Positions 25,174-63,030 of a stretch of DNA of 64,000 nucleotides are shown here, piece by piece. The translations under genes were made by a program, and so were the position numbers. This stretch comes from Duncaniella freteri (GTDB taxonomy: Bacteria > Bacteroidota > Bacteroidia > Bacteroidales > Muribaculaceae): assembly GCF_004766125.1 (NCBI RefSeq), contig NZ_SJSA01000001.1, positions 1,984,001 through 2,048,000 on the forward strand, read 5' to 3'. The notes beneath the pieces are model-generated. The model searched no databases. It was not told the origin of the DNA and worked only from the letters and a program-made list of their open reading frames with translations. Each line of letters opens with the position of its first letter. The stretch's first letter is position 1.

Positions 25174-26525
25174 CACTAGTGTCTCTTAAAAAGTGTTAAT
25201 CAAATTCGAGGTCAAGAGTTGGATGGCAATTTGCTATTTGTGCTGGCACCGGTTCTGGAGTCAACAAGTCCTTGATATGCTCCTTGACAAGCAGGGAGCT
25301 GCCGAGGATTCTCATGACTTCGTAGATGTTTCTTTCAAGTTTCATTTTATGTTCGATTATTGCGACAACGCAGTAAGTGCATATAGCCGCATAAATTTGT
25401 ATTCTGACGGATGTCTCGGAATTACCCCAGAATGTGGTGACTCTAAGGTGCTGTTTGATCCATTTGAAGAAAAGCTCCACCTGCCATCGGTTCTTGTAAA
25501 GGAACACAATCTGTTCGGCAGACAGGAAGAAATTATTTGTGTAAAAAACAAAACTTCTCTTCAGGTCAGGGATATACGCTACAATACGTCTAATCCGGGA
25601 AGGGTAATTGGATGCATTGCGTCTACCGGTAAACCTTACGGTATAATCTTGAAGAATGTTTCCATTCTCGGGCATGTCCAGACCATCCTCGACAATGAAC
25701 TTCGGCTTAGCCTTCTCTCTTATGACAAAGAAGGCTCCAAGTTCCTCAATCTTATGAAGCCTATCCAAGTCCCAGTATCCACGGTCGAAGATATAACCGG
25801 CCAACGGTTCATAATCAATGATATCCATCGCATTTACATCATGAACCGAGGCATTGGTGATGTTTATCATAACTGGAATCTGCGTCACTATATCAAGTTG
25901 GGTATGCAGTTTAATGCCGGACTTGGTGCTTCTGAACTTTGCCCAGTCATAAACACTCATGCAAAGGTCAATCGTGGAGGAATCGAACGCATAGAACTTG
26001 CCGCCGATACAAAATTCCCGGTCTATACGGGCTTCCTGAGCCAGCACAATCATATGGTTGGCGAACTCCTCGAACACATGCCAATCACGATTGGTATTGC
26101 ATCTGGAGAGAATATTACGGTCTACCGCTTCTTTGCCAAATCCGAGATGAAAGGATTTCTTGCGATGTGCTGTAGTGATATCCGAGAGTTCACGGAGACT
26201 TCGACATCCGAGCAGTTGACCGAATATAAGGACAAGCAACTGTCCCCAATAAGACAACTGCCATCCGAGGGTTCTGTCCTCAACCTTATTTTTGGTACGA
26301 TGCTCCATGATTCTTTCAAATTTGCGTTTTGGCAAAAAGTCAACAATCTGGCTGAAAATGTATCGTCCTGCATTCATGAAAAATTGGGGAACCGAGTTTT
26401 AAGGCTCCAACCCCAATGTAATCATTTGAAAAGTGCGACAAGGTTTGCAGGCCTGAAAATCGCGTAACCAACATGAATACAGAGTTTAACAATTTCGCAT
26501 TAACAGATTTTAAAAGACGCCAGTG
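25174..26525 (-). mobile_element. IS4-type insertion sequence, copy 3 of 5
   Basis: 1352 bp, a simple insertion with direct 9-bp duplications AATCCGAAT at 25165-25173 and 26526-26534. This copy establishes that the element makes 9-bp duplications. Confidence 0.97.
25196..26377 (-). CDS. IS4-family transposase (copy 3)
   Basis: 393 aa, same protein sequence as the transposase at 12941-14122. Confidence 0.95.
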   Translation of the reverse strand: MNAGRYIFSQIVDFLPKRKFERIMEHRTKNKVEDRTLGWQLSYWGQLLVLIFGQLLGCRSLRELSDITTAHRKKSFHLGFGKEAVDRNILSRCNTNRDWHVFEEFANHMIVLAQEARIDREFCIGGKFYAFDSSTIDLCMSVYDWAKFRSTKSGIKLHTQLDIVTQIPVMINITNASVHDVNAMDIIDYEPLAGYIFDRGYWDLDRLHKIEELGAFFVIREKAKPKFIVEDGLDMPENGNILQDYTVRFTGRRNASNYPSRIRRIVAYIPDLKRSFVFYTNNFFLSAEQIVFLYKNRWQVELFFKWIKQHLRVTTFWGNSETSVRIQIYAAICTYCVVAIIEHKMKLERNIYEVMRILGSSLLVKEHIKDLLTPEPVPAQIANCHPTLDLEFD

Positions 26526-39339: not shown

Positions 39340-40540
39340 ATTCTCAATACTATTCTACATCAACCGTGGCAAGACACGTTCCGACGGAACCACATCCGTG
39401 CTTTGCCGTATAACCGTGGATGGTAAAAGCACAGTCATGACCACCTGCATATCATGCAGACCCATAGACTGGAACCCCAAAACCGGCGAGACAAAATGCG
39501 TCAGAGACAACGCCCGGCTTGCCGCTATGCGAGGCGACATCGAGGAAGCCTACGCTGATATTCTTAAACGGCAGGGTGTTGTAAGTGCCGAGCTACTTAA
39601 AAACAACGTTGCGGGAAGCGTTACTGTCCCATCCGGACTTCTCGGTATCGGAGAGGCGGAGCGACTCCGTTTGAAGGCGCGCTCCGAGGAGACCGGCTCC
39701 AATTCCACATACCGCGAGTCGGGTTACAACCAGAGATATCTTGCGGAATATATCACATCCACGGGTAAATCCGACATCCCGGTTGCGGACGTGACCGGGG
39801 AATTCGGCCACGCATACAAGGCGTATCTGGTACGGCGCAAGAACTTCTCGCCCCAGTACGTCAACCGGTGTATGCGCTGGCTGAGCCGCCTGCTCTACAT
39901 AGCCGTCGACAACGGCACGATACGTGTCAACCCCATAGAGGATATGGACTACGAGAGACGTCCCGATGCCCGTCACCGTTACATAACCCGTGACGAACTG
40001 AGGCGCATCCTTGCGACACCCATGCGCGACACGCGCCAGGAACTCGGACGCAGGGCTTTCATATTCTCCTGCTTCACCGGACTTGCCTATGCTGACGTAC
40101 AGCTGCTTTACCCGCACCATATCGGCACGACCTCCGACGAACGCCGGTACATACGCATCAACCGCCGAAAGACAAAGGTGGAGGCGTTCATCCCACTGCA
40201 TCCCATAGCGGAGCGGATACTGTCGCTCTACAACACCTCGGACGATGAAAAGCCGGTGTTTCCCCTGCCGTCACGCGACGCCATGTGGTTCGAGATACAC
40301 GAACTCGGTGTGGCGATAGGCAAGGATGACAACCTGTCCTACCATCAGGCGAGGCACAGTTTCGGTACCATGCTGATATCGGAGAGCATACCTATCGAGA
40401 GCATAGCCGGGATGATGGGACACTCCAATATATCCACCACACAGGGTTATGCGAAAATCACGGAGGAAAAGATTGCCAGAGAGATGGACCGGCTCATCAA
40501 GCGGAGGAAAAGCGGAACGGCTTATGAGAGAAAAGAATAA

Positions 40541-44153: not shown

Positions 44154-45505
44154 CACTGGCGTCTTTTAAAATCTGTTAATGCGAAATTGTTAAACTCTGT
44201 ATTCATGTTGGTTACGCGATTTTCAGGCCTGCAAACCTTGTCGCACTTTTCAAATGATTACATTGGGGTTGGAGCCTTAAAACTCGGTTCCCCAATTTTT
44301 CATGAATGCAGGACGATACATTTTCAGCCAGATTGTTGACTTTTTGCCAAAACGCAAATTTGAAAGAATCATGGAGCATCGTACCAAAAATAAGGTTGAG
44401 GACAGAACCCTCGGATGGCAGTTGTCTTATTGGGGACAGTTGCTTGTCCTTATATTCGGTCAACTGCTCGGATGTCGAAGTCTCCGTGAACTCTCGGATA
44501 TCACTACAGCACATCGCAAGAAATCCTTTCATCTCGGATTTGGCAAAGAAGCGGTAGACCGTAATATTCTCTCCAGATGCAATACCAATCGTGATTGGCA
44601 TGTGTTCGAGGAGTTCGCCAACCATATGATTGTGCTGGCTCAGGAAGCCCGTATAGACCGGGAATTTTGTATCGGCGGCAAGTTCTATGCGTTCGATTCC
44701 TCCACGATTGACCTTTGCATGAGTGTTTATGACTGGGCAAAGTTCAGAAGCACCAAGTCCGGCATTAAACTGCATACCCAACTTGATATAGTGACGCAGA
44801 TTCCAGTTATGATAAACATCACCAATGCCTCGGTTCATGATGTAAATGCGATGGATATCATTGATTATGAACCGTTGGCCGGTTATATCTTCGACCGTGG
44901 ATACTGGGACTTGGATAGGCTTCATAAGATTGAGGAACTTGGAGCCTTCTTTGTCATAAGAGAGAAGGCTAAGCCGAAGTTCATTGTCGAGGATGGTCTG
45001 GACATGCCCGAGAATGGAAACATTCTTCAAGATTATACCGTAAGGTTTACCGGTAGACGCAATGCATCCAATTACCCTTCCCGGATTAGACGTATTGTAG
45101 CGTATATCCCTGACCTGAAGAGAAGTTTTGTTTTTTACACAAATAATTTCTTCCTGTCTGCCGAACAGATTGTGTTCCTTTACAAGAACCGATGGCAGGT
45201 GGAGCTTTTCTTCAAATGGATCAAACAGCACCTTAGAGTCACCACATTCTGGGGTAATTCCGAGACATCCGTCAGAATACAAATTTATGCGGCTATATGC
45301 ACTTACTGCGTTGTCGCAATAATCGAACATAAAATGAAACTTGAAAGAAACATCTACGAAGTCATGAGAATCCTCGGCAGCTCCCTGCTTGTCAAGGAGC
45401 ATATCAAGGACTTGTTGACTCCAGAACCGGTGCCAGCACAAATAGCAAATTGCCATCCAACTCTTGACCTCGAATTTGATTAACACTTTTTAAGAGACAC
45501 TAGTG
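44154..45505 (+). mobile_element. IS4-type insertion sequence, copy 4 of 5
   Basis: 1352 bp. The left flank ACCAATTAT (44145-44153) does not match the right flank ATAATATCA (45506-45514). It is instead the reverse complement of copy 5's left flank ATAATTGGT. This copy is therefore a junction of an inversion with copy 5. Confidence 0.95.
44302..45483 (+). CDS. IS4-family transposase (copy 4)
   Basis: 393 aa, same protein sequence as the transposase at 12941-14122. Confidence 0.95.
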   Translation: MNAGRYIFSQIVDFLPKRKFERIMEHRTKNKVEDRTLGWQLSYWGQLLVLIFGQLLGCRSLRELSDITTAHRKKSFHLGFGKEAVDRNILSRCNTNRDWHVFEEFANHMIVLAQEARIDREFCIGGKFYAFDSSTIDLCMSVYDWAKFRSTKSGIKLHTQLDIVTQIPVMINITNASVHDVNAMDIIDYEPLAGYIFDRGYWDLDRLHKIEELGAFFVIREKAKPKFIVEDGLDMPENGNILQDYTVRFTGRRNASNYPSRIRRIVAYIPDLKRSFVFYTNNFFLSAEQIVFLYKNRWQVELFFKWIKQHLRVTTFWGNSETSVRIQIYAAICTYCVVAIIEHKMKLERNIYEVMRILGSSLLVKEHIKDLLTPEPVPAQIANCHPTLDLEFD

Positions 45506-51234: not shown

Positions 51235-52586
51235 CACTAGTGTCTCTTAAAAAGTGTTAATCAAATTCGAGGTCAAGAGTTGGATGGCAATTTGCTATTT
51301 GTGCTGGCACCGGTTCTGGAGTCAACAAGTCCTTGATATGCTCCTTGACAAGCAGGGAGCTGCCGAGGATTCTCATGACTTCGTAGATGTTTCTTTCAAG
51401 TTTCATTTTATGTTCGATTATTGCGACAACGCAGTAAGTGCATATAGCCGCATAAATTTGTATTCTGACGGATGTCTCGGAATTACCCCAGAATGTGGTG
51501 ACTCTAAGGTGCTGTTTGATCCATTTGAAGAAAAGCTCCACCTGCCATCGGTTCTTGTAAAGGAACACAATCTGTTCGGCAGACAGGAAGAAATTATTTG
51601 TGTAAAAAACAAAACTTCTCTTCAGGTCAGGGATATACGCTACAATACGTCTAATCCGGGAAGGGTAATTGGATGCATTGCGTCTACCGGTAAACCTTAC
51701 GGTATAATCTTGAAGAATGTTTCCATTCTCGGGCATGTCCAGACCATCCTCGACAATGAACTTCGGCTTAGCCTTCTCTCTTATGACAAAGAAGGCTCCA
51801 AGTTCCTCAATCTTATGAAGCCTATCCAAGTCCCAGTATCCACGGTCGAAGATATAACCGGCCAACGGTTCATAATCAATGATATCCATCGCATTTACAT
51901 CATGAACCGAGGCATTGGTGATGTTTATCATAACTGGAATCTGCGTCACTATATCAAGTTGGGTATGCAGTTTAATGCCGGACTTGGTGCTTCTGAACTT
52001 TGCCCAGTCATAAACACTCATGCAAAGGTCAATCGTGGAGGAATCGAACGCATAGAACTTGCCGCCGATACAAAATTCCCGGTCTATACGGGCTTCCTGA
52101 GCCAGCACAATCATATGGTTGGCGAACTCCTCGAACACATGCCAATCACGATTGGTATTGCATCTGGAGAGAATATTACGGTCTACCGCTTCTTTGCCAA
52201 ATCCGAGATGAAAGGATTTCTTGCGATGTGCTGTAGTGATATCCGAGAGTTCACGGAGACTTCGACATCCGAGCAGTTGACCGAATATAAGGACAAGCAA
52301 CTGTCCCCAATAAGACAACTGCCATCCGAGGGTTCTGTCCTCAACCTTATTTTTGGTACGATGCTCCATGATTCTTTCAAATTTGCGTTTTGGCAAAAAG
52401 TCAACAATCTGGCTGAAAATGTATCGTCCTGCATTCATGAAAAATTGGGGAACCGAGTTTTAAGGCTCCAACCCCAATGTAATCATTTGAAAAGTGCGAC
52501 AAGGTTTGCAGGCCTGAAAATCGCGTAACCAACATGAATACAGAGTTTAACAATTTCGCATTAACAGATTTTAAAAGACGCCAGTG
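51235..52586 (-). mobile_element. IS4-type insertion sequence, copy 5 of 5
   Basis: 1352 bp. The left flank ATAATTGGT pairs with copy 4's left flank. The right flank AAACTGAAA (52587-52595) has no partner in the window, nor does copy 4's right flank ATAATATCA, so a further deletion or recombination occurred on that side. Confidence 0.95.
51257..52438 (-). CDS. IS4-family transposase (copy 5)
   Basis: 393 aa, same protein sequence as the transposase at 12941-14122. Confidence 0.95.
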   Translation of the reverse strand: MNAGRYIFSQIVDFLPKRKFERIMEHRTKNKVEDRTLGWQLSYWGQLLVLIFGQLLGCRSLRELSDITTAHRKKSFHLGFGKEAVDRNILSRCNTNRDWHVFEEFANHMIVLAQEARIDREFCIGGKFYAFDSSTIDLCMSVYDWAKFRSTKSGIKLHTQLDIVTQIPVMINITNASVHDVNAMDIIDYEPLAGYIFDRGYWDLDRLHKIEELGAFFVIREKAKPKFIVEDGLDMPENGNILQDYTVRFTGRRNASNYPSRIRRIVAYIPDLKRSFVFYTNNFFLSAEQIVFLYKNRWQVELFFKWIKQHLRVTTFWGNSETSVRIQIYAAICTYCVVAIIEHKMKLERNIYEVMRILGSSLLVKEHIKDLLTPEPVPAQIANCHPTLDLEFD

Positions 52587-52964
52587 AAACTGAAAGATAA
52601 GAACACTGGCAAATTTATTGGTGTGGCGACTATTAGCGGCATACTGACTTTCGCTATCGCTTGCGGATTGTGGTATATGGTTTCAGGCGAGAAGTGGTTG
52701 GATTTTTGGGGGATTCCTGTCACAATCATTTCGTTTTGGATAATCGGGGCTTTGATAGCGTGGCTTATCATCCCTGACAGGAAAAGCTATCTGTTAGGCA
52801 TCGCAGCGTATTTATCCACTATCGGGGTTAATTTCATTATAGCGGCTTTTAATTTCCTCAACGGAGAAAACGGATGGATTGTCCTGATCGCAATAGGTTT
52901 CGCAATTATCTCCATTCCCGGAGCTATTCTGCTGAATTTAGTAACAATACGGATTATCAAATGA
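52584..52964 (+). CDS. Small four-helix membrane protein (array gene 1)
   Basis: 126 aa, unrecognised. Four hydrophobic helices (ATISGILTFAIACGLWYM; IPVTIISFWIIGALIAWLI; GIAAYLSTIGVNFIIAAFNF; IGFAIISIPGAILLN). The present GTG start belongs to the end of IS copy 5, so the native start codon has been replaced. The first codons KLKDKN resemble the KLTDKR start of other array genes. Its stop overlaps the next start (ATGA). Confidence 0.6.
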   Translation: MKLKDKNTGKFIGVATISGILTFAIACGLWYMVSGEKWLDFWGIPVTIISFWIIGALIAWLIIPDRKSYLLGIAAYLSTIGVNFIIAAFNFLNGENGWIVLIAIGFAIISIPGAILLNLVTIRIIK

Positions 52965-53404
52965 AAGTTAAGAAAATTCATATAGCCATCGCGACGGCAA
53001 TATTGTCATTAATCGTAATCGCCGGTTGCTCCCGAAGTATTGACTATAACGATGGTGAGCCTGTGATGTTCTCTGAACTGCCGAAAGAGGTTCAGGACAC
53101 TCTAATTTGGTGGGGAGAACATACAATCGTATCCGTTGGAGATACGGTTGTTGTGGAACTGGACGATGTGATATGTTTTGAATCAGACTATACTTTTTTG
53201 CGCTCTACTTTCGGGCCGTGGATAACATCAAGAGGTTTGCGTCGAAATAATGACGGGAAAGAATGGAAATTTAGTGGTAATCTGAATGTGCCGACCCCTA
53301 TTGTCACCATAGGCGACACCATTTATATCCCGTCTGGTTATAATCTTGTCACTTGCGGAGAAGTGGAGCCAGATGCTGTTTTTTATCGGCAAATATTAAA
53401 ATAA
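52961..53404 (+). CDS. Lipoprotein of unknown function (array gene 2)
   Basis: 147 aa from the ATG overlapping the previous stop. Lipoprotein signal: MKVKKIHIAIATAILSLIVI followed by AGC, giving a lipobox with Cys near residue 23. The mature part is polar with a beta-rich look (DTVVVELDDVICFESDYTFL; VTIGDTIYIPSGYNL). No family recognised. Probably anchored in the envelope. Confidence 0.6.
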   Translation: MKVKKIHIAIATAILSLIVIAGCSRSIDYNDGEPVMFSELPKEVQDTLIWWGEHTIVSVGDTVVVELDDVICFESDYTFLRSTFGPWITSRGLRRNNDGKEWKFSGNLNVPTPIVTIGDTIYIPSGYNLVTCGEVEPDAVFYRQILK

Positions 53405-53412
53405 ATGATTGA

Positions 53413-54417
53413 ATGAAAGGTAAGGCATTAAAGAAAACGGCGGCTGATCTAAGGCGCAACGTGAGCCGGGAGCATGGCTTCCGGCAGAGTGCGTACATCA
53501 ACTTCAAAGTTGATGGCGGCTATTTCTTCTGCCTTTACTTTTTTGCAAACGGTTCAGCGTTTCCAAACGAAGCAAAGCTGACGGTCAAGCCGATGTATGC
53601 AGATACTCTTTGGTGGGAAATATGGGATTCACTGGAATGTATCGATGCGCCCATTAGTCTGCGCGGTACTGGAGCTTACGCGTTGTCGGGAATGGTGTTG
53701 GCAAAATATGAGAATTTAATTGACCCGAAAGAGTCCGGTGATTCCGAAATGAAGGATTTGTATGAACATATTTTCAGCCAAGCTGATACCGAAATCTCAC
53801 GATTCATTTCTGAAAATCCCGATGCCGATACATTCTATCCTGATGAAACAAAAATGGATTATGACCCCGACAGGTTGCTTTATCTCATGGCTCTTATCCA
53901 TAACAAACAGGAGGACGAAGCTTTATCAATAATAAAGGAAGCTCACAGTAATAAGCATCATTGTGTGTTCCGCAGCGGATGGAACAGCGACAGCTACACC
54001 TACATCAAGCGTTGGTGCAACCGAAATAGATCCGCAGAACGAATCCGACACCGGATAGATAATATATTAAATGCCGTTATAAGATTCCGTGCCTTTGTCA
54101 TAATGTCGATGTCACGCTCCCGTAGATATGATCTTCCGAATTTCTGGGATTATCGACCGTTGGACGTCGGCATATATATTGCGATTATATTCTCATGGAT
54201 ATTCCTCATGAAGAATTTTACTATGGTATGGATTTCACTGGCTATACTTGTCATAATGCAGTTTATGGTTGATGGGAAAAGAGCTAAACGCTATTATCGT
54301 GAATTTATGAATCTACCGATGACAATCAGGCGAAAATGGACTATTGGGTCATGGAGTGTAACTGTTGCATTATGGGTATATGTTATCTTTTTGATTATTA
54401 AACCGCTAAAACAATGA
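53413..54417 (+). CDS. Immunity-like protein with C-terminal membrane segments (array gene 3)
   Basis: 334 aa. The N-terminal ~110 residues (KKTAADLRRNVSREHGFRQS; YINFKVDGGYFFCLYFFANG; LTVKPMYADTLWWEIWD) resemble DUF4304-type cytoplasmic immunity proteins, but I am not certain. A helical, acidic middle (DPDRLLYLMALIHNKQEDEA) leads to three membrane helices near the end (GIYIAIIFSWIFLMKN; ISLAILVIMQFMV; WSVTVALWVYVIFLII). Overlaps the next gene by 4 bp. Confidence 0.55.
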   Translation: MKGKALKKTAADLRRNVSREHGFRQSAYINFKVDGGYFFCLYFFANGSAFPNEAKLTVKPMYADTLWWEIWDSLECIDAPISLRGTGAYALSGMVLAKYENLIDPKESGDSEMKDLYEHIFSQADTEISRFISENPDADTFYPDETKMDYDPDRLLYLMALIHNKQEDEALSIIKEAHSNKHHCVFRSGWNSDSYTYIKRWCNRNRSAERIRHRIDNILNAVIRFRAFVIMSMSRSRRYDLPNFWDYRPLDVGIYIAIIFSWIFLMKNFTMVWISLAILVIMQFMVDGKRAKRYYREFMNLPMTIRRKWTIGSWSVTVALWVYVIFLIIKPLKQ

Positions 54418-55049
54418 TATTATTCAGCATAATAATACAACTGGTTATCTTTACTTTGCTGGCAGTGGTGATTGCGCTACCATTGGCTGGGATTGTATGT
54501 TGGCGAAGCAGGAAGCATCGGAAACGTAATACCATATTGGCATTGTTATCGCCATTCGTGTTTATATATTCGTTCTATTTCACTTGTCTAATCGGAGGTT
54601 TCGCCTGTGCATCAATCTTTGACACCGGTTGCGGAATGGACGGATACTATAAGGCCGATTTGCCTAACGGTTATCAGATAGAATCCCTTGCGGATGACTT
54701 CGACCGCGAATATTTCACAGGATATGTCCGCAAAGACGGAACGCGCATCGTGGAATTGGTTGCAAAAATCAAGGTCTCAGGTGATTCGTTTTATGGAGAA
54801 CAGTCTTTTGAGTTTTTTCCAAGAGAGCATTATTTTGTCATTGACACTAAAACTGACAGCATAACTCAATATAAATCACTCAGTGAAGCAAAGGAAAAAG
54901 CTCCTACCGTTGTAACGGGCTTAACGTCCTTAGAGGCATTCTATTACAAGAGTTGGCCGTGGGTAATTCCTTTGACAATCCTCTCCATTGTCGTATCATC
55001 TGGTTTAGTATTCCTTTTATGGTTTATTGTCATCAAAATCTCAAAATAG
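54414..55049 (+). CDS. Membrane protein of unknown function (array gene 4)
   Basis: 211 aa. Two N-terminal membrane helices (IIIQLVIFTLLAVVIALPLA; ILALLSPFVFIYSFYFTCL), an extracytoplasmic domain of ~100 residues (YQIESLADDFDREYFTGYVR; SFEFFPREHYFVIDTKTDSI) and a last helix (VIPLTILSIVVSSGLVFLLW). No family recognised. ATGA overlap with the gene before it and a 3-bp gap to the next. Confidence 0.55.
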   Translation: MILFSIIIQLVIFTLLAVVIALPLAGIVCWRSRKHRKRNTILALLSPFVFIYSFYFTCLIGGFACASIFDTGCGMDGYYKADLPNGYQIESLADDFDREYFTGYVRKDGTRIVELVAKIKVSGDSFYGEQSFEFFPREHYFVIDTKTDSITQYKSLSEAKEKAPTVVTGLTSLEAFYYKSWPWVIPLTILSIVVSSGLVFLLWFIVIKISK

Positions 55050-55052
55050 AGT

Positions 55053-56162
55053 ATGATTCAGATTATTATAATTATATGCGTTATTATCCTGCTTGTCGGC
55101 CTTATGGTAAAGTGGCCGAAGCCAGGCTTGTATCTTTTCAAGATTGTATGTTTGATGCTTCTGCTGTCCGGGCTGTTCTTCGCTCTGTTCTTTACTCTTA
55201 TGGGGCTTGGAAAGCAAGCTTTAAACATTGACCTTCATCCTTGGCGGGAATATGTAGGCCCTCGTTTCATTGGAGCATTGATTGTAACAACGGTTATCTT
55301 CATAATATCTCAAATTCCTCTTCTTTTCTTGAAGAAATTATCAAGCAAGGTAAAATCGAAAATCTTGAAAATTGAAGGACTGGTATATGTGGCATTGTTG
55401 ATACTTGGCACAGGCTTGCTATATGTGGCTGTGAGTGACAGGAATTATCCCGAAAACCAAGTTATTGACAAAATTGAGGATTTCCACGCCAGACACGGAC
55501 AATATCCTAAAGATTTGAGCGACATTAATGTCAACATCGATAACGATAGCCTGTTCATAAATGATAATGTTCATCTCGGATATTCCTGCGATAAAAACGC
55601 TTATACGTTATCTATGAATTATGAATATGGCAGTTATGTTTATGATAGTAGGAAAGATAGATGGAGTAAGATTCAGGAAGGCTCGTCGATTGAGAATTAT
55701 ATGATTGCGATTCCAAAGGAGGCCGATGATGTAATTATAAGCGATTATGTTGATGAAGATATTGGTTCCTCTGGAATAAGCCGTTCTGAATTTTATCAGC
55801 TCACACAATCGCAATATGAAAAGGCTCGTGAAATATTGATAAAGCATTTCGCCGATTCCATACAGCCGTCTACCAATGGTGAATACCTTATAGAACATCC
55901 CGGAGGCTGGCTGGAATATATAGTATATCCGTATGAACAATATCGCCGTCAATATTTCGGTTGGAAAGACCGGGATGGAACGCATTTTGCTATGGTTATA
56001 CTCATCAGCAAGAAGCTTATTGAGCATTATATTTCATTGGGCAATTTTGAAGATAATGGTCAACTGTTTTGGATTGAAGATGGTGGAAGCGATGAAGTCG
56101 ATGCCCTAATCAATCTTGATGAGAGCAAACTGGAAACCTTCGTAGTACACCAACATGGGTAA
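55053..56162 (+). CDS. Membrane-anchored protein of unknown function (array gene 5)
   Basis: 369 aa. Four N-terminal membrane segments (IIIIICVIILLVGLMVKW; IVCLMLLLSGLFFALFFTLM; FIGALIVTTVIFIISQIPLL; VYVALLILGTGLLYVAVSD), then a soluble domain with FHARHGQYPKDLSDI, a segment reminiscent of pilin-like or secreted domains with a 'GxYPxxL' turn, and a long mixed C-terminus. No family assigned. 3-bp gaps on both sides place it in the same transcript. Confidence 0.55.
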   Translation: MIQIIIIICVIILLVGLMVKWPKPGLYLFKIVCLMLLLSGLFFALFFTLMGLGKQALNIDLHPWREYVGPRFIGALIVTTVIFIISQIPLLFLKKLSSKVKSKILKIEGLVYVALLILGTGLLYVAVSDRNYPENQVIDKIEDFHARHGQYPKDLSDINVNIDNDSLFINDNVHLGYSCDKNAYTLSMNYEYGSYVYDSRKDRWSKIQEGSSIENYMIAIPKEADDVIISDYVDEDIGSSGISRSEFYQLTQSQYEKAREILIKHFADSIQPSTNGEYLIEHPGGWLEYIVYPYEQYRRQYFGWKDRDGTHFAMVILISKKLIEHYISLGNFEDNGQLFWIEDGGSDEVDALINLDESKLETFVVHQHG

Positions 56163-56165
56163 AAA

Positions 56166-57053
56166 ATGAAATCAGACAGCAAAATATATCGGTTTTTCTT
56201 TGGGCGGCGGGGTGAAACTCGCTTGCCATTTGGTGCTATGTTGCTGATTCTTGTGCCTTTTCTTATTGGAGGTATGTATTTCCAAAACCGCAAATACAAT
56301 GCATTGTCGGCAAATCCGGAACATACATCGACTGTGATTTCAAATATCGGCTATATAGGCAACAGTGGTCCTATAATACATTACAAATTTACAGTGAACG
56401 GTGTAACATATAAAGGTGGTATGCATGCCAATGGTTTTGCTGTTGGCGACAGCATAGGTGTGGTATATCAGAAAGACAACCCGGAGAATAATATGACGGT
56501 GTTTGAATATTATGATGGCCCGTCGTATGGTTCGGTCGCAATATTCGTCCTCGCTGCGATTATTTTGGCTCTATACCGGTGGAGAAAAATCAATCGAAAA
56601 TACAACGACAGCTGCCCGGAGTTGGATGGCTCTGGAAGGTGTAGTATTTACCGCACCGACAAGGAATATATATTTGTTACAGTATATAATGTCACAGCGA
56701 ATCTCCCGATTAAATTCCTCCCCATAGGCTGTAGTAACGGAGAATTTGAGAATACTCTCATGGAAATATTCCATGCAAGTCTGCATGGCAAATATGTGGA
56801 GCTGAAAAACGCGGAACTGATCAAAGCCATGAAGCAACGCTCATGGCGACAGCTTTACCAACACTCCACAGGTGTGCTTCTGAAACACGACAGCCGCACT
56901 TTGGAGATTTTGCCCACCCGGAAAGCTACTGATGGCAAAGGTCTTGACTGGGATTATGACCGCGCTATTTCCTTCGAACTTGATACGGCATCATGGAAAA
57001 ACATAATAACATCAACCCGAAAACTCCTCAACAATAATGAAGCTGACCGATAA
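56166..57053 (+). CDS. DUF3592-like membrane protein (array gene 6)
   Basis: 295 aa. Helix GAMLLILVPFLIGGMYF, a DUF3592-like extracytoplasmic beta domain (HTSTVISNIGYIGNSGPIIH; YKFTVNGVTYKGG; VGDSIGVVYQKDNPENN) and a second helix (SVAIFVLAAIILALY). A soluble C-terminal domain follows (IKAMKQRSWRQLYQHSTGVL; WDYDRAISFELD). The last residues NNNEADR and stop are encoded by the same bases as the start of the next gene (MKLTDKR), a 17-bp overlap. Confidence 0.58.
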   Translation: MKSDSKIYRFFFGRRGETRLPFGAMLLILVPFLIGGMYFQNRKYNALSANPEHTSTVISNIGYIGNSGPIIHYKFTVNGVTYKGGMHANGFAVGDSIGVVYQKDNPENNMTVFEYYDGPSYGSVAIFVLAAIILALYRWRKINRKYNDSCPELDGSGRCSIYRTDKEYIFVTVYNVTANLPIKFLPIGCSNGEFENTLMEIFHASLHGKYVELKNAELIKAMKQRSWRQLYQHSTGVLLKHDSRTLEILPTRKATDGKGLDWDYDRAISFELDTASWKNIITSTRKLLNNNEADR

Positions 57054-57063
57054 ACGATTCTGG
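57037..57063 (+). repeat. Recurring start segment, copy 1
   Basis: ATGAAGCTGACCGATAAACG and 7 more bases encode MKLTDKRFW; in another frame the bases give the upstream gene's EADR-stop. Confidence 0.85.
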
Positions 57064-57480
57064 AAATTTGAGGCATTTACCTTTTTATATGCCATCGGAC
57101 TAATACTGCTTGTTGGGTTTCTATTCGATAAGCCTATCCCGTTTGAAAGAACTGTATATTTTTCATCGTTATTTCTTTTATCCGGGCTGGTTGCTTGGCT
57201 GGTTGCTAATGGTAAACATTGGTTTGTATTCGGTATTGTTTATGAAATCATATTTATGATTTTATGGGCCTTGATGTTAGCCGTTGCGCATTATATAGAA
57301 TATGATAGTCTTAATCATGCCATAGAAGACGGAATAATTGATGCTTGTGTATTTGTATATTTACTCGTGGGACCGGCAATCGTCATGTTTATTCCGTCAC
57401 TTGTATTGGCTTTCTTTGGCTATCATCTAATCAATAAGAAAAGCAGGGATAATGAAATTGATAAAAATGTAATATCATGA
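57037..57480 (+). CDS. MKLTDKRFW-start membrane protein (array gene 7)
   Basis: 147 aa. Starts MKLTDKRFWKFEAF, followed by about four membrane helices (TFLYAIGLILLVGFLF; TVYFSSLFLLSGLVAWLV; FGIVYEIIFMILWALMLAV; CVFVYLLVGPAIVMFIPSLV). No family recognised. The first 27 bp are one of the recurring start segments of the array. The stop overlaps the next start by 4 bp. Confidence 0.6.
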   Translation: MKLTDKRFWKFEAFTFLYAIGLILLVGFLFDKPIPFERTVYFSSLFLLSGLVAWLVANGKHWFVFGIVYEIIFMILWALMLAVAHYIEYDSLNHAIEDGIIDACVFVYLLVGPAIVMFIPSLVLAFFGYHLINKKSRDNEIDKNVIS

Positions 57481-57497
57481 AACTGACCGATAAAGAA
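57477..57497 (+). repeat. Recurring start segment, copy 2 (partial)
   Basis: ATGAAACTGACCGATAAAG encodes MKLTDK; the match ends before RFW. Confidence 0.75.
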
Positions 57498-57869
57498 ATA
57501 TCTGCACTACTTGACAAATCTGCGGAAGTGCGTTACCGATATTCCATCAAGCGAATTGCCGACGCATACTGCTTGTGGACTATTATCTCAAGTGATGGCA
57601 GTTATTGTCTGATTGTCGGTAACGGATGCCAAATGCTTCCGATATGGCCTTTCAAGGAATATGTGGAGATATATCTGTGTGGGAAAACAGTCGGATTCGA
57701 TGTCGTTTCAATAGATCTGAATAAATTTGAAAATGAAGTGATTAACATTATTTGCGATAACAACTTCCCAATCTCTGTTTTCCCTGTATCGGATGAAGAC
57801 ACTGGAAAGATTGTAGATCTTGATACTTTTGTAAAGGATTTATCCGTTGATCTTGAAAACTACCGATAA
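57477..57869 (+). CDS. DUF2750 family immunity-like protein (array gene 8)
   Basis: 130 aa cytoplasmic protein: EISALLDKSAEVRYRYSIKR, CLWTIISSDGSYCLIVGNGC, MLPIWPFKEYVEIY and FPISVFPVSDEDTGK follow the DUF2750 pattern (a 'LPVWPHPEYA'-type central motif). DUF2750 members are frequent in polymorphic-toxin immunity clusters. It starts with MKLTDKE, sharing the first 19 bp of the recurring start segment. It overlaps the next gene by 1 bp (TAATG). Confidence 0.72.
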   Translation: MKLTDKEISALLDKSAEVRYRYSIKRIADAYCLWTIISSDGSYCLIVGNGCQMLPIWPFKEYVEIYLCGKTVGFDVVSIDLNKFENEVINIICDNNFPISVFPVSDEDTGKIVDLDTFVKDLSVDLENYR

Positions 57870-58243
57870 TGGATTGCGACAACGAAAAATATAAGAACCT
57901 TTGGCATATATTTGTCAATATCGAAGCTATTGAAGGCTATAATTTCAATGATCTTATTGATACATCCGATTGCGATACTACTGTTAGCAAATATATCGGA
58001 GCATGGACCAACATTTTAGTCAAGGCCGATACAATCAATGAAGCCATTGAAATAATCCCGTTAGGGTTGAAAGAAAAGAACTTCAAGGTCATATTTATTG
58101 AACGTGCTGTAAATCTTCAATCAATGGCTGATGAAAACGACGTTGATGAAGAAGAGTTGGAAGAAGCCGACTGGTTACTCTCGACATCATACAGATTCAA
58201 AATTGTTGACCGTTTATATCCTTATATCGCAGATGAAGAATGA
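57869..58243 (+). CDS. Acidic protein of unknown function (array gene 9)
   Basis: 124 aa, very acidic (DENDVDEEELEEADWLLS). The start (WHIFVNIEAIEGYNFNDLID) and the central AWTNILVKADTINEAIEIIP-LGLKEKNF segment suggest a small alpha/beta fold; the DTINEAIEIIPLGL pattern recalls proteins that cover one target domain, as immunity proteins do. No family assigned. It overlaps the next gene by 11 bp. Confidence 0.55.
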   Translation: MDCDNEKYKNLWHIFVNIEAIEGYNFNDLIDTSDCDTTVSKYIGAWTNILVKADTINEAIEIIPLGLKEKNFKVIFIERAVNLQSMADENDVDEEELEEADWLLSTSYRFKIVDRLYPYIADEE

Positions 58244-58982
58244 GATATTGAATAAGTCACTGCTTGAGCTTGGTGAGTGGACTTGGCTCCGGCAGCCGTC
58301 TGGCGATGATTTGCAGTCAGACCGCCTTACTATGGAGTTGGACTGTCTAAGTAAGAAGAAACTTTGCGATTATAGCAATTCTGATATATACCTTGCGGTG
58401 AGTCAAGAAAAAGGGTTGCGATTTACTCTGCCATTGGCTATCAGACTTATTGAAGATGATATACTAATTGAATGTGAGTTTTATGAAGGAGATTTGTTAA
58501 AGGCGGTTCTTCAAATACCAACGACATATTACCAGCTTAATGTCGATGATTTCATCAAAGTGGCAAGTCTGATTTCTTTGAAAGACAACAAAAGAATCAT
58601 GTCTGATTATCATGGCAACAGAGAACTCCGTCTGTTATTTGATTTATGGTGCGATTACCGCAAATCATATAGGGTAAGGATTATCACTAACAATTATCGG
58701 CTACCGATAGATGATGTAAAGGAATTTCTATATCAGACTGTTGGAGATGACTCGTCTTCCGAAGTTGATTTTTCAGACTATACACACTATTGGAAATCAG
58801 ACAATCAAGGAGAAATCACAGCGATGATTTCAACTGTAATACCTTTTGATATTCTTCGCCAACGCATAGCCGAACAATGGACTATAGCTGATAAAATTGG
58901 CAATTCATTTGTTGTTGACTCTCGTATGTCTAAAATTTTCAACAAGCTCATTTATTGGATGAGTATTGACTTAGATTCATGA
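58233..58982 (+). CDS. CdiI-like contact-dependent inhibition immunity protein (array gene 10)
   Basis: 249 aa from the ATG at 58233 (an earlier in-frame Met would overlap the previous gene by over 100 bp). The segment LNKSLLELGEWTW, then LDCLSKKKLCDYSNSDIYLA, KGLRFTLPLAIRLIEDDILI and ECEFYEGDLLKAVL is the order of motifs seen in CdiI-family immunity proteins (LRxKPLxxFTVEDLR, GLKYLIPLA, FYPGDLL). The second half looks like a second, different domain. Binding to a toxin C-terminal domain is the expected role. Confidence 0.7.
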   Translation: MKNEILNKSLLELGEWTWLRQPSGDDLQSDRLTMELDCLSKKKLCDYSNSDIYLAVSQEKGLRFTLPLAIRLIEDDILIECEFYEGDLLKAVLQIPTTYYQLNVDDFIKVASLISLKDNKRIMSDYHGNRELRLLFDLWCDYRKSYRVRIITNNYRLPIDDVKEFLYQTVGDDSSSEVDFSDYTHYWKSDNQGEITAMISTVIPFDILRQRIAEQWTIADKIGNSFVVDSRMSKIFNKLIYWMSIDLDS

Positions 58983-59024
58983 GTTGCAAACTTCTCTACA
59001 ATAACCAGACTCAAAAATTCTTCA

Positions 59025-59675
59025 ATGAAATTCTATAAGCTATCACACGATTTAGAAACAGGCAAGAAATATCCACAGGTGGAATGCCTAAGACCTTTCA
59101 CTGCGTCTCAAATAAGTCCGTGGAATAAATTGTCGTGTAATCCTGATTTGAGGTTCAAATTAAGGAGAGGTGCCGTAATATCTGACTTTCTCTCAACAAC
59201 AGCCGGACCGGGTTGCGATATGCTTATATCTCCTGAATTATATGAATGTATCAGGCATTTCAATGTCATGCCACATCAAATTTTTCCGGTGACAGTAGAA
59301 ACCAATAAAGATGTTAGGGAATATTTGTGGGTGCATTTATATGGGCCATCATTTGTCGATTCAATAGATTATGAAAAATCATCTTTTATTCGGACAGAGT
59401 GGACTATCCCACAAGAGCCTATAACATTGGAGTCATTCAGTCAATATCAGCAATTAAAATTAAAGGATAAGACCGGGGCTTTTGGTGTAACTTTTAATTC
59501 ACTTGCGCTACGCGATAAAAGCACAACTTGGGATCTGTTTTTCCCATTTCCATTCGACAGTACAATCTTTATTTCTGAAAGGTTGACAGATGAACTAATA
59601 AGGTCTAATTATACCGGTTTGTCAATAGAACCGACAAATCTAATCACTTGCACATTGAATAATGAAACTGACTGA
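59025..59675 (+). CDS. Imm11/DUF1629-like immunity protein (array gene 11)
   Basis: 216 aa. N-terminal MKFYKLSHDLETGKKYPQVE and central FKLRRGAVISDFLSTTAGPG, CDMLISPELYECIRHFNVMP and YLWVHLYGPSFVDSIDYEKS fit the Imm11 (DUF1629) family of toxin immunity proteins. Its last residues NNETD and stop use the same bases as the start of the next gene (MKLTDKRFW), a 14-bp overlap. A 42-bp gap separates it from the gene before. Confidence 0.7.
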   Translation: MKFYKLSHDLETGKKYPQVECLRPFTASQISPWNKLSCNPDLRFKLRRGAVISDFLSTTAGPGCDMLISPELYECIRHFNVMPHQIFPVTVETNKDVREYLWVHLYGPSFVDSIDYEKSSFIRTEWTIPQEPITLESFSQYQQLKLKDKTGAFGVTFNSLALRDKSTTWDLFFPFPFDSTIFISERLTDELIRSNYTGLSIEPTNLITCTLNNETD

Positions 59676-59688
59676 TAAACGATTTTGG
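59662..59688 (+). repeat. Recurring start segment, copy 3
   Basis: ATGAAACTGACTGATAAACG and 7 more bases encode MKLTDKRFW; in another frame the bases give ETD-stop of the upstream gene. Confidence 0.85.
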
Positions 59689-60246
59689 AACAGATTAGGA
59701 AACACGGTCAATGAGTTATTCTTTTGGCTCTTTATTGTGTTTGCCGTGTTGCTAACCATTGATTTATGGTGTTTGTTGGCGACTGTCATAGTATGCCTGT
59801 TTGGTGCGATGGATAAGTCATTGACATTGTTGAAAATATTTGGAGCATTTGGGATAATTCTCATGCTTTTCTCCAATTTTACATTATGGCTGACAATGTA
59901 TTCGCCAAAGATATACAAATGGCTTGTGTCAGTGGTCCGTAGTAAACGACTGAGACTATTGTATTTCCTGACATTAGGCTATGTGAACGTATATCTGCTG
60001 AACCTCTATTATATCAGATTCAGATATAACCAGTATGAACTGACACAGTATCGTGTAAATGTGTTATATTCGGTTTTGGTCATGTTCCCAATCATAAATA
60101 TCCCGGTCTATGTAGCGGCCATTCGTCGTAGCGGGCGACAAGTGCCCTTGGGCTATGCGGCAAAGTTATATATGCAGGGAAGATTAGCAACGTACCTGAT
60201 ACAAAAGGATTATTCATCATTGATTAAAGATGGAAATGAACAGTGA
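59662..60246 (+). CDS. MKLTDKRFW-start membrane protein (array gene 12)
   Basis: 194 aa. MKLTDKRFWNRLG, then two long hydrophobic helices (ELFFWLFIVFAVLLTIDLWC; KIFGAFGIILMLFSNFTLWL), a further pair (LLYFLTLGYVNVYLLNLYYI; NVLYSVLVMFPIINIPVYVA) and a basic cytoplasmic tail. No family recognised. It overlaps genes on both sides (14 and 17 bp). Confidence 0.6.
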   Translation: MKLTDKRFWNRLGNTVNELFFWLFIVFAVLLTIDLWCLLATVIVCLFGAMDKSLTLLKIFGAFGIILMLFSNFTLWLTMYSPKIYKWLVSVVRSKRLRLLYFLTLGYVNVYLLNLYYIRFRYNQYELTQYRVNVLYSVLVMFPIINIPVYVAAIRRSGRQVPLGYAAKLYMQGRLATYLIQKDYSSLIKDGNEQ

Positions 60247-60604
60247 AATATACCATCCTATAAATTTGATTGATTGCGAGTGTTCAATCAACTCAATAGA
60301 CTACAATGCTACGGATCTTATTGTCGAGCTGGAACGGTTCGACAACAAAGGCATAGTCAGAGTTGAGTTCAAAGAAGTGTTCGCATATCGCGTGACTTTG
60401 GAACATTTCAGAATTACAGAGGTTATGGATGGCTTGACTTTACAGCCTCTATATATTGTTGAAAATTCCTCTTATTTGAAAGAAATCATGGCAACGGGGA
60501 TGAAAGTATTGTATGGCACTTCTCTTAACGTGACTCACTATGCAATAAAGACAGCCGAACACATCGTTGATATATTAACCACTGAAGATTATATCATAGA
60601 ATGA
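60230..60604 (+). CDS. Small soluble protein, immunity-like (array gene 13)
   Basis: 124 aa, no signal or membrane segment. Beta-rich start (INLIDCECSINSIDYNATDL; IVELERFDNKGIVRVEFKEV) and FAYRVTLEHFRITEV are reminiscent of small immunity folds, but no family is assigned. The ATG lies inside the end of the previous gene (17-bp overlap) and its own stop overlaps the next by 4 bp. Confidence 0.55.
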   Translation: MEMNSEIYHPINLIDCECSINSIDYNATDLIVELERFDNKGIVRVEFKEVFAYRVTLEHFRITEVMDGLTLQPLYIVENSSYLKEIMATGMKVLYGTSLNVTHYAIKTAEHIVDILTTEDYIIE

Positions 60605-61125
60605 AAAGACGAGGCTTAAAGAGATATTACCGTAATCTATTCAACAGGAACTTAGCCGAGAATTTTATTATAAATCTAAAAAGTGGAGCCGCAAAGTATG
60701 ATTTTGCACATATCCACTTTGATGGTTATGTTCTTAATCGGTGGAATGAAATTAAACTCCACCTTGATGCATTGTTTAGACAGTTAAGTCTTTTCAAATC
60801 AAATGCCATTAATATTACTATGCCTTTTCAAGTCTGGGGGCATGTTTGTTTTCAACGGGACTTAGGTTGTCAGGTTTCGTTATATGTTCATACACCCAAC
60901 AGTGATTATGATGATTTTCCTATGGTCTTCACAAATGTCTCTGATTACATGATAACTAATCGAAAAGAGTTGCATGATTATCTTAATAAAAGACAACGCG
61001 AAGGCTATGAAATACGATATTCAAGGAATTGCGATAATGAGCAGGAAATCGTTATTGCGATTATGAATGTTGGGCTACCGATTTTCACACCAATTAAAGA
61101 CACAAGCGATGAAACTGACCGATAA
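60601..61125 (+). CDS. Soluble protein of unknown function (array gene 14)
   Basis: 174 aa, basic N-terminus (MKRRGLKRYYRNLFNRNLAE), then mixed alpha/beta (YDFAHIHFDGYVLNRWNEIK; QVWGHVCFQRDLGCQVSLYV). The C-terminus TSDETDR and stop share bases with the start of the next gene (MKLTDKRFW), a 17-bp overlap of the kind also seen at 57037. No family recognised. Confidence 0.55.
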   Translation: MKRRGLKRYYRNLFNRNLAENFIINLKSGAAKYDFAHIHFDGYVLNRWNEIKLHLDALFRQLSLFKSNAINITMPFQVWGHVCFQRDLGCQVSLYVHTPNSDYDDFPMVFTNVSDYMITNRKELHDYLNKRQREGYEIRYSRNCDNEQEIVIAIMNVGLPIFTPIKDTSDETDR

Positions 61126-61135
61126 AAGATTTTGG
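61109..61135 (+). repeat. Recurring start segment, copy 4
   Basis: ATGAAACTGACCGATAAAAG and 7 more bases encode MKLTDKRFW; in another frame they give ETDR-stop of the upstream gene. Confidence 0.85.
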
Positions 61136-61504
61136 ATAGTGATTATTTTAGCGCCCTTCTTGATGGCGTGCAGTGACAGGCACGACATAACCGACAATTA
61201 TTCCGTATTTACATATGGAGAGGGGTTGTATGGAGAAAAGGAAACGGATTATCCGATATTTGCTGAGAAACTTGGATATAAAGAATCGCCTAATTTTATC
61301 CCTCATATCAAACAGTCCTGGTGGAACCAAAAATATATCGTACTCAAACAATCCGGCGACATATTTTGGATTATAAAACCACAGAACCGGGAGCTGGAAG
61401 CCGGAGATATTTATTTAGGCCCATTAACCGCTTATCAGAAAGACAGCATATTGACAGCCGAAAGAATTGATTTGAACCAAATGAACCATAAGGCATATGA
61501 ATAA
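61109..61504 (+). CDS. MKLTDKRFW-start lipoprotein (array gene 15)
   Basis: 131 aa from ATG 61109. The recurring MKLTDKRFW start here forms the n-region of a lipoprotein signal: IVIILAPFLMAC, with the lipobox Cys at about residue 21. The mature part is a small polar domain (YGEGLYGEKETDYPIFAEKL; ILKPQNRELEAG-type segment). Thus the same start segment heads both membrane proteins and a lipoprotein. 8-bp overlap with the next gene. Confidence 0.62.
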   Translation: MKLTDKRFWIVIILAPFLMACSDRHDITDNYSVFTYGEGLYGEKETDYPIFAEKLGYKESPNFIPHIKQSWWNQKYIVLKQSGDIFWIIKPQNRELEAGDIYLGPLTAYQKDSILTAERIDLNQMNHKAYE

Positions 61505-62165
61505 GCGACAGTTTATGAAAATCATGTGTGATACTTTTAATCTTGGAAGTATCACTCCAAGTATCGTTGGCTATCATATAGATTGTATACTTATGGGTAT
61601 GAATCTTATAAAAGTTCCGGGACGAACCGGATACAAACTGTTTTTCTCTATTTATCCATTATGGCGACAATCTTTGAGAGCGTGTCTTGGCTATCCGTCG
61701 TTTCTTCAACCGATCCTCGATAATAAGAATATGGACTATATTCTCCCTGAGGATATGGCTGAAAATGAAATTGATGATGCGTTGCATTTATATCAATCGC
61801 AGATTTCATACAGTCATTCAGAGGATGTATCTTTCACAGAATTAAGAAAATACCTGAAATCATGTATATCGAATCATGTTGGGATAAGAAGTAACTTTGT
61901 GCTTCAAATGAAAATATATGAACTGCTTTACGGGATTGCTTTATATCGCGATGATAAAGAAACAGCTAACGACATATGCAAGACAATATCAGACAATATA
62001 ATACAGTGGGATGATAAGATATTTAAATACTGGTATGGCGATAAGGCTGAATATCTTTTGCGCCTTATGGATTTTGATTCCAATAGAATCAATCTTTTTG
62101 ATAATGTTTCGCTAAATTTAGCCGAGCCCAAAGTACAGAAATTACCACACTTTTCTTTTTTATAG
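61497..62165 (+). CDS. Soluble protein of unknown function (array gene 16)
   Basis: 222 aa, helical. CDTFNLGSITPSIVGYHIDC, YPLWRQSLRACLGYPSFLQP and IYELLYGIALYRDDKETAND suggest an all-alpha fold without a signal peptide. No family recognised. It ends 5 bp before the next start. Confidence 0.55.
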   Translation: MNKRQFMKIMCDTFNLGSITPSIVGYHIDCILMGMNLIKVPGRTGYKLFFSIYPLWRQSLRACLGYPSFLQPILDNKNMDYILPEDMAENEIDDALHLYQSQISYSHSEDVSFTELRKYLKSCISNHVGIRSNFVLQMKIYELLYGIALYRDDKETANDICKTISDNIIQWDDKIFKYWYGDKAEYLLRLMDFDSNRINLFDNVSLNLAEPKVQKLPHFSFL

Positions 62166-62170
62166 GAATA

Positions 62171-62521
62171 ATGAATATGAAACTGATCGATAAACGATTC
62201 TGGATAGCATGGACGGCTGTGGCAATGCTGATGGTGGTTGTTACTGCACAATGTTGTTTTAATGAGGACACGGTAATTCTTGGTATAGCCTATGCTTTGT
62301 CGTTAATCTCAACGTGGCTATGCCACCGAATCAGACCAAAGGCAACTTTTAGCAATCTACTGGTTATGTTCCTATACAATACCATACTTGGCTATAACTT
62401 GATTTTCAACAATCATGGTGGAGCCGGATTTACATGGTGGTTCTATCTTCTATTACTTAACGGAGTCCACTCGATTGTGCTATTGATATATACCTCATGT
62501 ATTTACATAAAGAAACGATGA
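62171..62521 (+). CDS. MKLIDKRFW-start membrane protein (array gene 17)
   Basis: 116 aa from ATG 62171; the second Met at 62177 begins the recurring start segment (MKLIDKRFW) and may be the real start. Three to four hydrophobic helices (IAWTAVAMLMVVVTAQCCF; VILGIAYALSLISTWLC; LLVMFLYNTILGYNLIF; FYLLLLNGVHSIVLLIYTSC). Unrecognised. Stop overlaps next start by 4 bp. Confidence 0.58.
   Translation: MNMKLIDKRFWIAWTAVAMLMVVVTAQCCFNEDTVILGIAYALSLISTWLCHRIRPKATFSNLLVMFLYNTILGYNLIFNNHGGAGFTWWFYLLLLNGVHSIVLLIYTSCIYIKKR
62177..62203 (+). repeat. Recurring start segment, copy 5
   Basis: ATGAAACTGATCGATAAACG and 7 more bases encode MKLIDKRFW. Here the upstream gene ended earlier, so the bases are not shared. 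Confidence 0.85.
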
Positions 62522-63030
62522 AACCTAAGAAAATCATCATTCTGACGATTATAGTGCTATTTGGAATAATGGGTGCGACTGTCTGCTATCGTCATGACAT
62601 AAGCTATCAACAAATATGCTGCATTAAGAATCCGGATAGTAAAGACAATGCCAATACTTTGTTCTATCCTTATGGATTCGCCCTGTTGCATGACAGCATT
62701 TCTCTGCAATCATACCGTGGCATAAACGAGAGCACCTTACGTATTGCAGACAATGTGGGTCAATGGGATTTTGAAAAATATTCCTATCTGATAACCTACG
62801 GCAATAATGTGGAACAGCTATCATACAGTTGGCTTGACACATTCATTTATGATGAGTCTCCCAGCTATGCCAAATGTTGGAAAGAAGGCAAACAATTACT
62901 GATTGTAGATTATCTGGGGTTCAATTACCGTCAACATTCACTTCTCAATGATAAAGAAATAAAAGGCAATGACAGCATATATGTCTATCGACTACCACAT
63001 TCACCATTCTTACGTGGCTTGCAAAACTAA
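62518..63030 (+). CDS. Secreted or anchored protein of unknown function (array gene 18)
   Basis: 170 aa from the ATG at 62518, which overlaps the previous stop. N-terminal signal or anchor MKPKKIIILTIIVLFGIMGA, then a polar extracytoplasmic domain (CCIKNPDSKDNANTLFYPYG; IADNVGQWDFEKYSYLITYG). Short and without a known family. Last gene of the array. Confidence 0.55.
   Translation: MKPKKIIILTIIVLFGIMGATVCYRHDISYQQICCIKNPDSKDNANTLFYPYGFALLHDSISLQSYRGINESTLRIADNVGQWDFEKYSYLITYGNNVEQLSYSWLDTFIYDESPSYAKCWKEGKQLLIVDYLGFNYRQHSLLNDKEIKGNDSIYVYRLPHSPFLRGLQN

Follow-up and report, generated by a model that had tools for sequence, protein, structure and literature searches.

Can a short coding segment that ends one gene and begins the next serve as the joint at which the genes of an array are exchanged? 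The question is raised by a 64,000-nucleotide stretch of the Duncaniella freteri genome (Muribaculaceae; RefSeq assembly GCF_004766125.1, contig NZ_SJSA01000001.1, positions 1,984,001 to 2,048,000 of the forward strand), referred to below as the window and numbered from its first base. The window contains an array of small, immunity-like genes, several of which open with nearly the same few codons. A sequence-only reading of the window had taken this recurring segment, which we call the seam, for a two-frame adaptor at which modules are exchanged by recombination. Comparison with related arrays leads us to conclude that the seam is quite probably a genuine module joint, at which arrays exchange genes or gene blocks, likely by homologous recombination.

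A segment read in two frames

The 27-bp seam, encoding MKLTDKRFW (MKLIDKRFW in one copy), opens four genes in the window and an 18-bp core opens a fifth, at 57477. When both strands were scanned with up to three mismatches allowed, the 27-mer pattern was found four times (57037, 59662, 61109 and 62177), always on the forward strand and with 0 or 1 mismatch; 100 shuffles of the window gave no match. These shuffles, together with the reversed-pattern controls in the genome searches described below, lead us to reject a chance origin of the seam. The sequence-only reading had all five genes sharing 19–27 bp, which is correct for the four with the full 27 bp and overstated for 57477, where only the first 18 seam bases are matched without a break. 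This shorter start counts as seam because relatives of the DUF2750 gene that it opens share it behind three different upstream sequences (loci L144, L110 and L057).

A total of 122 non-redundant seam copies, with up to five mismatches, was gathered, chiefly from Muribaculaceae; the set is unpruned and three of its copies sit in chance-looking loci (L053, L060 and L062). In the window the seams at 57037, 59662 and 61109 do encode the ends of the upstream proteins (EADR, ETD and ETDR plus stop), as had been noticed, and the adaptor reading extends well beyond them: among the 110 copies with a clear upstream frame, the upstream stop lies inside the seam at 72, in 29 cases at ATGA, in 32 at TAA after tails of the E-T-D-R type and in 11 elsewhere. 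The position of the stop varies among copies in 9 of the 20 upstream clusters with several members, and the junction can therefore decide the last residues of the upstream protein. On its other side the seam supplies the start codon and first 6–9 codons of the next gene. Downstream of the 122 copies there are 103 start codons with frames of at least 60 residues, 15 shorter frames, 3 long frames without a standard start codon and one frame that runs past the end of its locus.

Might the five genes simply be duplicated paralogues that have diverged behind a conserved N-terminus? The N-terminus is indeed common to them, and the downstream proteins of several relatives go on alike after it (IFEAF, KFEA). 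Once the first nine residues are removed, however, mutual blastp searches of the five proteins give nothing better than E = 1.1; they differ completely after the seam, as had been claimed, with similarity limited to the shared start rather than extending over their full lengths as in true homologues. The start is also common to DUF2750, pentapeptide-repeat and lipoprotein-like genes, upstream genes likewise differ ahead of one shared downstream gene, and pairs that share the upstream gene but differ in the downstream one (see below) contradict the idea directly. We therefore regard it as barely credible.

Genes are reassorted with breakpoints at the seam

The loci used for the breakpoint, 14-mer and related analyses were picked by DNA pattern, with a codon-open search serving as a check. 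The 122 copies represent 67 upstream clusters and 57 downstream clusters in 108 combinations. For the breakpoint profile we used 108 copies with up to four mismatches and sufficient flank, L062 having been removed. In the 92 pairs alike upstream but not downstream, upstream identity has a mean of 0.88, and identity stays high through +27 and is down at the background level by +28. In the 223 pairs alike downstream but not upstream, background identity extends to −1 and high values begin at base 0. Agreement on both sides is seen in only 20 pairs. Several downstream partners are seen for 15 of the 20 multi-member upstream clusters, and several upstream partners for 14 of the 18 multi-member downstream clusters. 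One upstream gene, mostly ending STRKLLEHHETDR, has 11 members and 9 different downstream partners.

The ends of blast homologies tell a similar story (L053, L060, L062 and L064, which are likely chance loci, and L073 were omitted from this count). Left ends fall between −3 and +8 of the seam in 305 of 1538 cases, where a uniform distribution would give 0.2%, and 203 of the 1538 lie exactly on its first base; 100 of 1645 right ends lie at +28. There are 2.5 left ends per seam (n = 121) as against 0.42 per other gene start (n = 655), a density about six times higher that is inflated by the way the loci were selected. In a de novo scan of 14-mers over 803 kb, seam words ranked first in context diversity, with as many as 33 contexts on the left and 23 on the right, a rank subject to the same bias; a Markov control of the scan gave none. 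Module analysis identified a 1.63-kb block that recurs in 6 outer contexts, and 8 distinct presence/absence signatures. Two pairs of loci point to recent events: L124 and L145 are 100% identical over 2409 bp, ending at the seam, and L113 and L129 are 99.7% identical over 2278 bp, ending 13–14 bases beyond it.

The 14-mer scan also brought up a second, weaker joint around GAAAGGAGGCAAGCGATGAA, with 10 left and 11 right contexts, which ends unrelated proteins in KGGKR-like tails and then starts the next gene. It is carried by L110, L106, L118, L125, L182 and other relatives and was not seen in the window.

The window itself has taken part in such events. Relative L130 matches positions 55912–57065 (86.7%) and 59662–60400 (89.3%) in one uninterrupted stretch, the two matches overlapping by 29 bases, that is, by the seam plus one base; the module between these seams (Table 1) is missing from it. 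L145 is 98.4% identical to positions 60601–62204, and the DNA that comes next in it matches the window from 59656 onwards at 92.4% identity, so the left side of the 62177 seam is joined there to the right side of the 59662 seam. Within the D. freteri genome, a second array (L011) holds a 95.4% copy of the gene at 59025; similarity stops at 59689 and a different gene follows. A third copy, at 80%, is followed by a different gene again, starting MKLTDNIS. The comparison of gene order that the sequence-only reading had proposed thus reveals seam-to-seam swaps, the window included, and gene reassortment with breakpoints at the seam across relatives, as expected of modules exchanged at a short seam. 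At the level of the sequences compared, then, these analyses demonstrate reassortment with breakpoints at the seam, presence and absence of modules from seam to seam, and junction DNA that is shared between genera.

The seam is conserved as DNA and is not confined to the window

Genomes were searched for the seam with up to three mismatches, the reversed pattern serving as control. It was found in 22 of 198 relatives, all belonging to the family of the window, with none among the 79 genomes of the same order outside the family, and in 41 of 397 genomes drawn from that family. A draw from the order gave 5 of 393 genomes, 2 of them outside the family, with one match to the reversed pattern (G531); the reversed pattern had no match among the genomes listed for the relatives and the family draw. 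The seam is accordingly not a peculiarity of this one locus. A scan of named genomes yielded 47 stretches, including Duncaniella, Heminiphilus, Barnesiella, Bacteroides acidifaciens, Phocaeicola sartorii and Xylanibacter, some rows of which (Pseudomonadota and Lachnospiraceae, for example) resemble chance or mis-binned matches. Further copies lie in the genome of the window itself, on a second contig (C2), in three more arrays near 92, 102–107 and 1034 kb.

When the nine residues were searched for with codons left open, 47 matches were found in 32 of the 397 family genomes (one encodes Phe for Leu). GAT is used in 47, CTG in 39 and CGA in 36; the array-wide shares of these codons are 60, 18 and 18%, respectively. 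Judged by codon choice, the nine-residue start is conserved as a DNA spelling, with minority synonymous codons retained.

This bears on the proposal that translation start, coupling or membrane targeting is what conserves the segment, recombination being incidental. The seam does lie at gene starts, overlaps stops and encodes a basic stretch ahead of hydrophobic segments. Yet it is also found on proteins without hydrophobic segments (DUF2750, pentapeptide repeats), minority codons are retained, and breakpoints are denser than at other gene starts, even if that excess is biased upward. We think this proposal very unlikely as a full explanation; a role in translation may coexist with recombination.

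How are genes exchanged at the seam?

The junctions share a core of about 16–18 bp (ATGAAACTGACCGATAAA), 28 bp in the largest gene group, and in the mechanism we propose its identity permits arrays to exchange genes or gene blocks at gene starts. One frame closes the upstream gene, through TGA in ATGA or through TGA or TAA after E-T-D or E-T-D-R, and the other opens the next gene with a start codon and initial residues; as the seam closes one gene and opens the next, exchange from seam to seam keeps both neighbours readable. The exchange itself would proceed by general homologous recombination over 18–28 bp of identity, with help from longer matches wherever neighbours resemble one another; mobilizable elements would bring the participating arrays together. 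The benefit would lie in a repertoire of orphan immunity proteins that keeps changing.

Homologous recombination over this short identity seems to us moderately probable as the route, and it is favoured because the 3′ edges of the seam vary, no recombinase is constant and no structure is apparent. Depending on the gene family, the 3′ edge lies at 16, 18, 19, 21, 22 or 27–28 bp, and folding of four seams and one reverse strand revealed no hairpin (z-scores −0.46 to 0.73), on which ground an attC-like hairpin at the seam is rejected.

Several observations weigh against exchange at the seam by this route. The sequences of L130 and L145 come from metagenome assemblies. Loci were selected because they contain the seam, which inflates both the 14-mer ranking and the ratio of homology ends. 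Linkage weighted by pairs sets the exchange near bases 17–22, as would fit a fixed site. Identity of 18–28 bp is short for efficient homologous recombination, and a homologous route spreads an existing seam and leaves its first gain by unrelated genes unaccounted for; for that first acquisition, joining at short matches inside the seam would fit the variable edges. With cluster weighting (one copy per combination, 108 of the 122), bases 22–29 follow the downstream gene and bases 3–8 weakly follow both sides, and the fixed exchange point suggested by pair weighting is not upheld.

A different enzymology can be envisaged, in which a dedicated site-specific recombinase swaps start-less cassettes at the seam in an integron-like manner, each cassette comprising its own stop and the start of the next gene. 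We consider this improbable, and are just as doubtful of a coding recombination site in which the cassette, a gene lacking a start of its own, would end in a 17–18 bp tail carrying its own stop and, in another frame, the start codon and initial codons of the gene inserted next, and a recombinase would shuffle immunity genes across gut Bacteroidales. Such an enzyme would be in keeping with the pair-weighted switch in linkage, the constant seam borders of the main gene group, the cassette-like presence and absence of modules, an end-to-start junction, and the tyrosine recombinase that, with a RhuM/Fic gene, precedes related (sister) arrays in 11 loci. The 3′ edges that differ among families, the lack of a hairpin and the unsharp cluster-weighted linkage argue the other way, as does the distribution of that recombinase.

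In these 11 loci a tyrosine recombinase of 478 amino acids, the RhuM/Fic gene, a leader and the array form a nearly constant shell; in the loci traced further, DUF6043, DUF3987, NikA-like and relaxase genes come 3′. Nine of 12 shell loci examined extend to DUF6043, and in 5 of these a cut-short seam gene is the last before it; in the other 4 an extra short frame without a seam lies between. The leader between the RhuM/Fic gene and the first array gene is conserved (near 4135–4340 in L011, and in ten more shell loci), and ends in a TTTG/TAnnTTTG-like promoter; the first gene varies between loci.

B. acidifaciens and P. sartorii have identical or nearly identical copies of the shell recombinase, which, on sequence identity, points to recent transfer between families. 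Full-length copies with at least 50% identity occur in 14 of the 41 genomes with a seam and in 8 of 39 without one, some of these genomes being incomplete, and in G049 an element with a 99%-identical recombinase bears unrelated cargo without a seam. Because the same shell holds unrelated cargo, there and elsewhere, the enzyme is probably the integrase of a mobilizable element; its candidacy as the necessary enzyme of exchange is weakened, given that 27 of the 41 seam genomes lack a full-length copy and the cargo in G049 is seam-free. Other cargo at the position of the array, some of it resembling defence or ATPase operons, is seen in L212 (G049), L221, L224 and others. Thirteen Bacteroides proteins besides that of B. 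acidifaciens are homologous to the sister recombinase (one at 68% identity, the rest at 28–42%), and none of the 12 inspected by eye lies beside such an array. A search for CdiI_3 found it in 0 of 99 genomes and likewise in 0 of 14 control genomes, and is uninformative.

The array in the window and its surroundings

The array was described at the outset as an AT-rich run of 18 genes on one strand, and the count of open reading frames (ORFs) agrees; its guanine plus cytosine (GC) content is 38.9%, compared with 44.5% across the whole window (Table 1). Of the gene families named for it, DUF2750 and a CdiI-like family are confirmed by profile matches, the latter as CdiI_3; membership of the 59025 protein in Imm11/DUF1629 is not, since it has no match among Pfam or NCBIfam profiles. 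The array was also said to be flanked by tyrosine recombinases. One does lie 3′; on the 5′ side there are an insertion sequence (51254–52528) and an SLFN/AlbA_2 gene, and the closest recombinase (39398–40540) is about 12 kb away. The recombinase–RhuM/Fic shell is absent from this array.

Table 1 Features of the array and its surroundings (positions in the window)
Feature	Position	Strand	Remarks
Array of 18 co-oriented small genes	52584..63030	+	ORF count and GC content
First array gene, degenerate seam-like start GTGAAACTGAAAGATAA	52584..52600	+	L186 has ATG at the start of the same gene
Seam 1	57037..57064	+	Closes 56166–57053 gene (...NNNEADR, stop), opens gene for 147-aa membrane-type protein; L130 homology stops at 57065
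Seam-to-seam module, 2625 bp	57037..59661	+	Missing from relative L130; sequence comparison
Short seam, 18-bp core	57477..57494	+	Opens DUF2750 gene; upstream stop shares the ATGA overlap only
DUF2750 gene	57477..57869	+	PF11042, E = 1.5e-12
CdiI_3 immunity-family gene	58233..58982	+	PF18616, E = 5.2e-17
Seam 3	59662..59689	+	Closes 59025–59675 gene (...LNNETD, stop), opens gene for 194-aa membrane-type protein
Seam 4	61109..61136	+	Closes 60601–61125 gene (...TSDETDR, stop), opens lipoprotein-like gene
Seam 5 (MKLIDKRFW)	62177..62204	+	Opens gene for 114-aa membrane-type protein; upstream stop (62163–62165) precedes seam
Tyrosine recombinase, 372 aa	63347..64000, continues to 64465	−	Tail-to-tail with array; profile matches; candidate only for a role in seam exchange

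The insertion sequence immediately preceding the array is one of five copies in the window (the others at 12938–14212, 19694–20968, 25193–26467 and 44212–45486), all with frames of 393 and 424 amino acids on opposite strands. At 2892–6089, three tandem tyrosine recombinases lie between two large frames (ending at 2834 and resuming at 6262) that may be halves of a single interrupted gene; a pair of recombinases with sizes as in this set is found again at two further sites in the genome.

Comparison with known systems

The array invites comparison with the recombinase-associated acquired interbacterial defence (rAID) clusters. Both consist of co-oriented, short, low-GC genes with immunity families in gut Bacteroidales and may be alike in a conserved junction sequence, and in many sister arrays a tyrosine recombinase lies upstream. 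Five features define rAID clusters: an upstream tyrosine recombinase, homology of that recombinase to BF9343_RS08045, at least two co-directional genes below 41% GC, conserved intergenic motifs, and orphan immunity genes that neutralize effectors of the type VI secretion system (T6SS). The first is lacking in the window and present in the 11 sister loci, with RhuM/Fic between; for the third there are 18 genes, at 38.9% GC over the array as a whole. A conserved junction motif is present but codes in two frames, where the rAID motifs are described as intergenic, and the putative immunity genes belong to the families CdiI_3 and DUF2750 (window) and Imm32 (relatives). The sister recombinase, moreover, also accompanies non-array cargo. 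Because the array in the window lacks the defining upstream recombinase, we call it rAID-like and do not file it as rAID; the resemblance drawn by the sequence-only reading survives as an analogy.

By a second analogy, the array works like a gene-cassette array. In integrons, small genes form arrays and come and go as units at a short sequence that is repeated, and the same can be said of the genes here. The seam differs in having no folded attC-like hairpin and in placing the joint inside coding sequence, where it bears the next start codon. No integron integrase was found beside the array: of the neighbouring recombinases, the two that were tested match Phage_int_SAM_5 (one of them Arm-DNA-bind_5 as well), and their matches to XerC, XerD and XerA models are weak, far below cut-offs.

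In orphan toxin/immunity modules of contact-dependent inhibition (CDI) and Rhs systems, variable immunity-type modules are exchanged beside a conserved coding motif; there the motif is in the toxin, here in the first codons of the array genes. Conserved boundary sequences have also been proposed for phage modules (PMC3029335), and the likeness lies in a short common sequence at gene boundaries with homologous exchange of unrelated neighbours. Here one sequence recurs at many junctions of one array, across genera, and overlaps stop and start.

What the arrays may do

Sixty representative proteins were taken from co-oriented runs. The families among them include CdiI_3, Imm32, DUF2750, DUF4304 and pentapeptide repeats, many proteins having no named match; neighbouring genes may be included (radical-SAM and TonB families appear), and the list is an outline only. 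From the CdiI_3 and DUF2750 genes of the window and the Imm32 genes of its relatives, we infer that the array genes would confer immunity to delivered toxins. A T6SS element is reported in a Muribaculaceae species and mouse Bacteroides (PMC12694586), and attackers therefore exist in this habitat.

The mechanism by which rAID clusters arise is described as an area of active research (PMC12247911). The string MKLTDKRFW is absent from searchable full texts, a scope outside which most subscription papers fall, the original rAID paper included, and no such seam is described in the titles and abstract openings of the rAID, integron and Muribaculaceae-immunity literature among the matches listed. In many genomes, cultured mouse-gut isolates among them, the joint can be placed almost to the base, and its 27 bp provide a tag with which such arrays could be found and typed in metagenomes. 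It would solve a general problem in a simple way: being both a stop and a start, it allows recombination that leaves the reading frames unbroken.

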